The notes under the pieces were generated by a model that was given only the letters and a program-made list of their open reading frames with translations, was not told where the DNA came from and did not search any database. Below, piece by piece: positions 45,810 to 51,492 of a DNA stretch of 64,000 nucleotides (the first letter of the stretch is position 1; each line of letters begins with the position of its first letter). The DNA comes from Tepidisphaeraceae bacterium (GTDB lineage Bacteria; Planctomycetota; Phycisphaerae; Tepidisphaerales; Tepidisphaeraceae). Location of the stretch: contig DASYHQ010000018.1 of assembly GCA_035998445.1 (NCBI GenBank), positions 1-64,000 on the forward strand, in the 5' to 3' direction. Both the position numbers and the translations under genes were made by a program.

Positions 45810-45960
45810 CAATCAAATCCCAATGGCTAAGCTCCGATGACCAATGAACCTGCTGTCCTTGGTCATTCGGATCTGGGCATTGGGGTTTGGGATTGGGACT
45901 TTCCGGCCGTTTGAAAATACCCTCACCTCGCCTCTCCCGGAGTACCGGGAGAGGGACCGG
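45810..45960. repeat. Palindromic repeats upstream of the TPR gene
   Basis: Two palindromes: 45810-45895 (AATCAAATCCCAATGGCTAA ... CATTGGGGTTTGGGATTGGG), imperfect arms of about 36 nt; and 45930-45960 (CGCCTCTCCCGGAGTACCGGGAGAGG). Both types resemble repeats at other gaps in this window. The 249-nt gap holds nothing else. Confidence 0.7.
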
Positions 45961-45977
45961 AGCGCCCAGTCTGGCAA

Positions 45978-49956: not shown

Positions 49957-50213
49957 TGTCATCCTGAGGTACTCCGAAAGATCTCTTTCTTCCGGACGTG
50001 AATACGGGGGGGAGATCCTTCGGAGTACCTCAGAGGGTGTTTATTAAGTCTGGCCCCTCTCCCATGTACTCGTAGGGAGGCTGGGAGGGGGTGATCTCGA
50101 ACGACGACAAGTGTCAGCCGTTCGAAATCGCCCCCTCCCAGCCTCCCCCGGCGTACCGGGAGAGGGGCCGGAGCGAGTCCGTCCGGCTTAATAAACACCC
50201 TCTCAGGATGACG
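49957..50213. repeat. Composite palindromic repeat with an inserted MITE-like element
   Basis: Outer palindrome: TGTCATCCTGAG at 49957-49968 and CTCAGGATGACG at 50202-50213, with a further hairpin TGAGGTACTCC / GGAGTACCTCA inside the left half. An inner element, 50034-50201 (168 bp), starts AGGGTGTTTATTAAG and ends with its exact reverse complement. CTCAG precedes and follows it (50029-50033 and 50202-50206), a 5-bp target-site duplication. The inner element carries GC-rich palindromic arms (CCCTCTCCC ... GGGAGAGGGG) seen at other gaps. The gap 49781-50290 holds no gene. Confidence 0.85.
50034..50201. mobile_element. 168-bp MITE-like element with 15-bp TIRs and CTCAG duplication
   Basis: TIR AGGGTGTTTATTAAG / CTTAATAAACACCCT, perfect over 15 bp, with similarity continuing for about 85 nt inward apart from an indel of some 14 nt. 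Flanked by direct CTCAG repeats. No coding capacity, so it would be moved by a transposase elsewhere. It is inserted in a chromosomal palindromic repeat. Confidence 0.8.
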
Positions 50214-50247
50214 TTTGCTTCGTGTAGTACGCAAGTCCAAACGAAAG

Positions 50248-50275
50248 AGCCCTCCGACGCGTTCGTCGGAGGGCT
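50248..50275 (-). terminator. Terminator after tRNA-Pro(TGG)
   Basis: Stem AGCCCTCCGACG/CGTCGGAGGGCT with loop CGTT; on the minus strand a T-rich CTTTCGTTT follows. Confidence 0.8.
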
Positions 50276-50290
50276 GAAAATCGTCTCTAA

Positions 50291-50364
50291 TCGGGGCGAC
50301 AAGATTTGAACTTGCGGCCTCCTGGTCCCAAACCAGGCGCTCTACCAAACTGAGCTACACCCCG
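50291..50364 (-). tRNA. tRNA-Pro(TGG)
   Basis: Read on the minus strand: acceptor CGGGGTG/CGCCCCG (one G-T pair), D-arm GCTC...GAGC, anticodon stem CCTGG/CCAGG around TTTGGGA (anticodon TGG), T-arm GCAAG/CTTGT. 74 nt, no CCA. Together with tRNA-Pro(CGG) 1.3 kb away it reads most proline codons. Confidence 0.97.
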
Positions 50365-51197: not shown

Positions 51198-51492
51198 CCT
51201 CCCTCTCCCGGTACTCCGGGGGAGGGCTGGGGAGGCAGCGTTTGTTCCAATCAACAAGTATGGCCCGGACAGCGCCCTCCCAAAAGGCTGGCGGATAGAA
51301 TCACTACGTTGGTCGGCGACGTGTCATCCCGATGGGAGGCTTGCCAACCTGACCCATCTCCCAAGGGTAAGAACCGTCCGTCGTTTGAGATCCCTCAGGT
51401 CGCCTGAGGCTCCCTTCGGGATGACATGCGCGCGCGGGGCGACAGGTTCTGTCCGCTAGCCTAATCCCCCACAGCGTACCGGGAGAGGAGGT
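51198..51492. repeat. Cluster of palindromic repeats after the carbonic anhydrase gene
   Basis: 51198-51237 (CTCCCTCTCCCGGTACTCCGG ...) and 51475-51490 (CAGCGTACCGGGAGAGG) look like two halves of one GC-rich palindrome. Copy 3 of the TGTCATCCCGA family lies between them (51322-51426), possibly an insertion. The gap 51120-51629 holds nothing else. Confidence 0.65.
51322..51426. repeat. Palindromic repeat of the TGTCATCCCGA family (copy 3)
   Basis: TGTCATCCCGATGGGAGGC at the left and TCCCTTCGGGATGACA at the right, 105 bp long, the same length as copy 2 (49067-49171), and its interior CCGTCCGT and GAGATCCCTCAGGTCGCC stretches are also shared. Confidence 0.9.

Follow-up and report, generated by a model that had tools for sequence, protein, structure and literature searches.

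The question raised by this locus was what kind of element interrupts a palindrome in the genome of a Phycisphaerae-class planctomycete, and what brought it to that site. The window, i.e., the whole stretch of 64,000 nucleotides analysed, is the start of contig C18 in a draft genome of 5.84 Mb in 64 contigs. It contains a non-coding element of 168 bp bounded by perfect 15-bp inverted ends, with CTCAG on either side (50029-50033 and 50202-50206). The ends, described as perfect in an earlier sequence-only reading of this DNA, were indeed exact inverted repeats, AGGGTGTTTATTAAG (50034-50048) and CTTAATAAACACCCT (50187-50201), and no other match to them was present in the 64 kb with up to two mismatches allowed (chance 0.02). 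Rejoining the flanks gave a palindrome, GTCATCCTGAGGTACTCCGAAAGATCTC...GAGATCCTTCGGAGTACCTCAGGATGAC, whose 28-bp arms are complementary at 27 of 28 positions. In this palindrome, here called repeat A, the left arm (GTCATCCTGAGGTACTCCGAAAGATCTC) lies at 49958-49985, and the right arm is broken by the insertion into a first part at 50012-50032 and a remaining part (GGATGAC) at 50206-50212, all on the positive strand. The element interior self-folds almost end to end (DNA fold -71.3 kcal/mol, z -13.2). Most of it is a palindromic repeat, B (TCTGGCCCCTCTCCC...GGGAGAGGGGCCGGA, 50049-50173, no strand assigned), followed by a short spacer before the right end (50174-50186, positive strand) that was retained in the closest end-bearing copies and absent from stand-alone copies of B. 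The inward similarity of about 85 nt previously noticed between the two ends corresponds to the element's own inner palindrome (50049-50172), within the separate repeat B. A minus-strand ORF of 129 aa (49959-50348) overlaps the element and crosses the palindromes and a tRNA gene, the locus being a tRNA-Pro one; this ORF is read as a chance occurrence.

A genome-wide search for the ends, which the sequence-only reading had proposed as a check on its claim that a MITE-like element of a multicopy family had inserted into a palindrome, recovered many other copies, and a solitary insertion, which would have counted against that claim, can be set aside. At least 21 genome sites matched the strict end with up to two mismatches, and at least 39 matched a broader end, CTNAG-AGGGTGTTNAAGAA, with up to one; reversed-pattern controls gave 0 in both cases (the genome-wide counts rest on searches and cover the matches listed or scored). 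With the whole element as query, the best other B-type copies among the matches listed showed 96% identity over 168 bp and 93%, and several further copies in the host genome, at 77-81%, carried one or both ends. The copies are thus multiple and dispersed in the host genome, as expected of a MITE. The idea of an active or recent family gained support for its multicopy nature but not for activity: the nearest listed copy differs by 4%, erosion is seen in many copies, and the host draft genome gave no transposase with these ends (see below).

Similar ends enclosed at least two unrelated palindromic interiors, namely repeat B in the window copy and a commoner repeat, C. The C subfamily is about 206 bp long, has similar ends and the palindrome GTGGCATGGGCG...CGCCCATGCCAC, and its matches span positions 1-213/214 at 90-94%. 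In genome G021, from the same taxonomic family, similar ends enclosed a copy of repeat A itself. Repeat B was also present without the ends at about 30 loci (element positions about 16-140), which indicates that it exists independently, and stand-alone copies inspected by eye for a target duplication of their own showed none that was consistent. B-type stretches without inverted ends also lie in the window, at 45925-45975 (CCTCTCCCGGAGTACCGGGAGAGGGACCGGA) and 51200-51235 (CCTCTCCCGGTACTCCGGGGGAGGGCTGGGGAGG). Less usual in this family is that different palindromes, one of them (B) also free-standing, lie between the same ends. In IMG/VR the strict end had no match, and the broad end gave two matches, both uninformative.

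The interrupted sequence, correctly recognised before as a chromosomal palindrome, proved to be more than a local feature: repeat A is abundant and is the habitual target. At least 160 of its arms matched a 25-base probe with up to one mismatch and, since the probe spans the insertion point, these arms are uninterrupted. Flanks were tabulated for the 33 copies in which both ends could be placed, about a dozen copies with poorly placed ends being excluded. Both flanks were recognisable arms of A, at its CTNAG, in 30 of the 33 (calls tolerated two to three mismatches over six to seven neighbouring bases), i.e., most copies lay within an abundant extragenic palindrome, as REP-targeting insertion sequences do. 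The right arm of A, as in the window copy, was hit in 12 copies and the left arm in 13, while 5 had outer arms on both sides and 3 a single recognisable A flank. The density of CTNAG in the window (87 per 64 kb) corresponds to about 7,900 sites genome-wide, and about 160 of these (about 2%) come from A; with insertions assumed to be independent, the binomial probability of such an enrichment was 7e-48.

A preference of this kind might also come about by selection and not by transposase specificity, if insertion were broad at CTNAG and copies persisted mainly in the intergenic, dispensable A. Related-end elements of other planctomycete families (genomes G286 and G283) occupy varied CTNAG sites outside A-like repeats, as this account would have it. 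We consider it unlikely since, on the assumption that just 10% of CTNAG sites are permissive, the share belonging to A would still be about 20%, far under the observed 30/33 (p about 4e-18, independence again assumed); the account is in any case compatible with a MITE and differs solely in why A is filled. The 700-bp flanks of the copies had only short repeats in common, not whole loci, and no segmental duplication was seen, which supports the independence assumed in both binomial figures. Very improbable is a spread in which A and an element already inside it were copied together, the apparent target choice being a product of co-amplification: one position within A does hold nearly all copies, but either arm was hit, B or C interiors occur at the same A site, the A loop varies from copy to copy, the sequence outside A is unrelated, and many copies of A are empty.

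The five copies with outer A arms on both sides (L200, L202, L213, L219 and L012) had mismatched TNA, mostly TGA on the left and TCA on the right, with no direct duplication and without the inner hairpin of A. Simple insertion does not account for them. Recombination between two copies was rejected as their origin, as it predicts inner-inner cases too and 0 were seen in the table; loss of the inner hairpin, possibly after insertion, is therefore the better guess.

The presence of CTCAG on both sides was confirmed, but its interpretation as a 5-bp target duplication was not. Readings of 5 bp and of 3 bp yield identical sequence within repeat A, and the window copy alone cannot separate them. 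At the ends of some elements the outer G was absent (TTA then A in L259, CTTAC in an element of genome G016, CTAAC in L163), and it was duplicated inconsistently, whereas TNA, or T-N-A with the middle base changed, was duplicated. Of the 12 insertions in the right arm, 11 had the same TNA to the left and right of the element, as did 8 of the 13 in the left arm. Three complete insertion sequences from the host's class, L257 (about 869 bp), L259 (about 850 bp) and L262 (about 844 bp), had both ends, starting with GAG or GAA, and TTA on both sides, i.e., the TNA duplication of the IS1031 group proposed as parent; the flanking TNA pairs of L163 and L195 (see below) were imperfect. From the ends without the outer G and the TTA-flanked insertion sequences, the window element is read as 170 bp long (50033-50202), and its duplication is most likely a 3-bp TCA with a 16-bp GAGGGTG... 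end, over the 5-bp CTCAG with 15 bp, as judged from these sequence comparisons. The putative duplication would comprise a left TCA at 50030-50032, within the left CTCAG, and a right TCA at 50203-50205, both on the positive strand and of the TNA form known in the IS1031 group (PMC12016507). The left terminal inverted repeat, GAGGGTGTTTATTAAG (50033-50048, positive strand), is then the earlier 15 bp plus the outer G, and the right one lies on the negative strand at 50187-50202 (CTTAATAAACACCCTC as read on the positive strand). A short non-coding length (168-170 bp), perfect 15/16-bp ends, TCA flanking the window copy and matching TNA at most copies are all features of a MITE.

IS5-family elements with matching ends were found in other genomes. 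One in Caldilineaceae (L163) had matching ends and ORFs in two frames with PF13340 (DUF4096) and PF01609 (DDE_Tnp_1) over the cut-off, i.e., a DDE transposase of the IS4/5 type, as in the IS1031 group; L178 and L181 were fragments of an element of this type. A degenerate Palleronia element (L195) belonged to the IS5 family and had matching ends, and a cyanobacterial element of the family (L169) had one matching end. In genome G012, of the same family as the host, a transposase is split between contig ends, which hold its start (MARPPYETDLTDRQW...) and its end, with AGGGTGTCCAAGAAG ends, and this broken IS5 element sits in the G012 counterpart of repeat A. In genomes other than the host's, the MITE ends are thus common to an autonomous element. 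The many contig-database matches to CTNAGAGGGTGTNNAAGAAG were probably due to chance.

The host draft genome yielded no transposase bearing such ends, and a query with one from the matching group gave no match at E 1e-20. The host's IS5-type transposases on contigs C13/C23, C6, C8 and C64 were rejected as partners, as they have other ends; this applies to its PF13340/PF01609 matches. Current mobility is for this reason no more than possible. Since the assembly is a draft in 64 contigs, the partner could be missing from it, and its absence may be genuine, the family then being stranded, or due to a gap in the assembly. The insertion sequence with the same ends that the sequence-only reading had proposed to look for was located, with matching ends, in relatives, in the IS5 family, and not in the host draft genome; its claim of a MITE was not overturned.

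The window element is very probably a MITE, a non-autonomous derivative of an IS5-family, IS1031-like insertion sequence, the IS1031 group being assigned to the parent from ends, size and duplication alone. The copies, ends, target position, duplication and interiors, and the IS5-family elements with matching ends elsewhere, were read directly from the DNA. To produce them, a DDE transposase acting in trans would bind the GAGGGTGTTNAAGAA-type ends, excise or copy whatever sits between them, and join this DNA at a staggered 3-bp cut, C^TNA^G, with duplication of TNA. The target would be chosen by the transposase; in the host genome the site used is nearly always the CTNAG located close to the base of each A arm. 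Repeats B and C would have been captured as cargo: since the interior is not conserved (B here, C in the larger subfamily), what the ends carry seems to be palindromes taken up from elsewhere and not a deleted transposase gene. A more speculative version, which we regard as possible but rather doubtful, is that the transposase recognises repeat A itself and that the ends serve as a cassette for the capture of B and C, as well as of A in a related genome, whereby nested palindromes would co-spread.

Repeats A, B and C are abundant and palindromic like REPs, and an element of REP/REPIN type, mobilised by a tyrosine transposase (RAYT), might be proposed in place of a DDE MITE; the defined linear inverted ends with a short direct target duplication, and the DDE insertion sequences bearing the same ends, make this extremely improbable, although a REP/RAYT reading may hold for any of the three repeats as such. 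Identification as a structured RNA or terminator, as improbable, would suit the very strong fold (z -13.2) but not the transposon-like copy number, ends and duplication, and the Rfam matches on the element, microRNA ones included, were far under gathering scores and are expected of any long hairpin.

As a MITE, the element can be compared with known systems. For the IS1031 group (e.g., ISLrh), a length of 857 bp, an end GAACCTGT... and a TNA duplication have been described (PMC12016507). Both this group and the element have ends of about 16-17 bp beginning GA...TGT, with TNA duplication, and the candidate partners resemble the group in having about 850-870 bp and DUF4096 plus DDE_Tnp_1, with ORFs that occupy two frames in L163 and L145. 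Unlike the insertion sequences of the group, the element has no transposase gene and is strongly placed in one repeated palindrome. REP palindromes are documented targets of insertion sequences from five families, IS5 included, e.g., ISRm22, ISPpu9, ISPa11 and the IS5-family ISNm1106 (PMC1525189). Here too an abundant extragenic palindrome holds nearly all copies, but these are mainly non-autonomous miniatures, they reside in a planctomycete, and their target palindrome has long arms. MITEs such as NEMIS, Nezha and RUP, with ends of 15-30 bp, are well known in bacteria (PMC3733652); the present family shares with them a length within 70-300 bp, ends of 15-30 bp, lack of coding capacity and possible strong folding, and differs in that the same ends surround different palindromic interiors that also occur alone. 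REP-targeting insertion sequences and MITEs are thus of a known kind and this family appears to be undescribed, no paper on it having been found in a literature partially covered, in which matches were judged by titles and abstracts. The family connects little-described planctomycete palindromic repeats with IS5-type transposon ends, clearly exemplifies MITEs restricted for the most part to one repeated palindrome, and supplies, for testing, a DDE transposase whose landing site can be predicted. If confirmed, it would help to account for the nesting and multiplication of palindromes in these genomes, and for the assembly breaks there.

A common A + element + C sequence was present at four contig ends of the host assembly: the start of C58 (L012) and the ends of C26 (L009), C35 (L010) and C64 (L013). 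At these places it lies inside a larger palindromic arrangement (GATACGAATCGTGATTAAACC...), and the nested repeats seem to break the assembly. At the start of G000:C23 (L150), right after an IS5 transposase remnant, we observed another MITE-like inverted pair, AGCGTGTTATGCACTTT...AAAGTGCATAACACGCT, and ends resembling it (GAGCGTGTTATG) were located near the transposases L267 and L270. Genome G286 carries a different MITE-like family (L123, L131, L135 and L141) with related ends, AGGGTGTTTAAGAAGG...CTTCTTAAACACGCT, around a GAACCGAGCCGCGACCGTCAGGGAGCGG palindrome, positioned at CTNAG-like sites outside repeat A.
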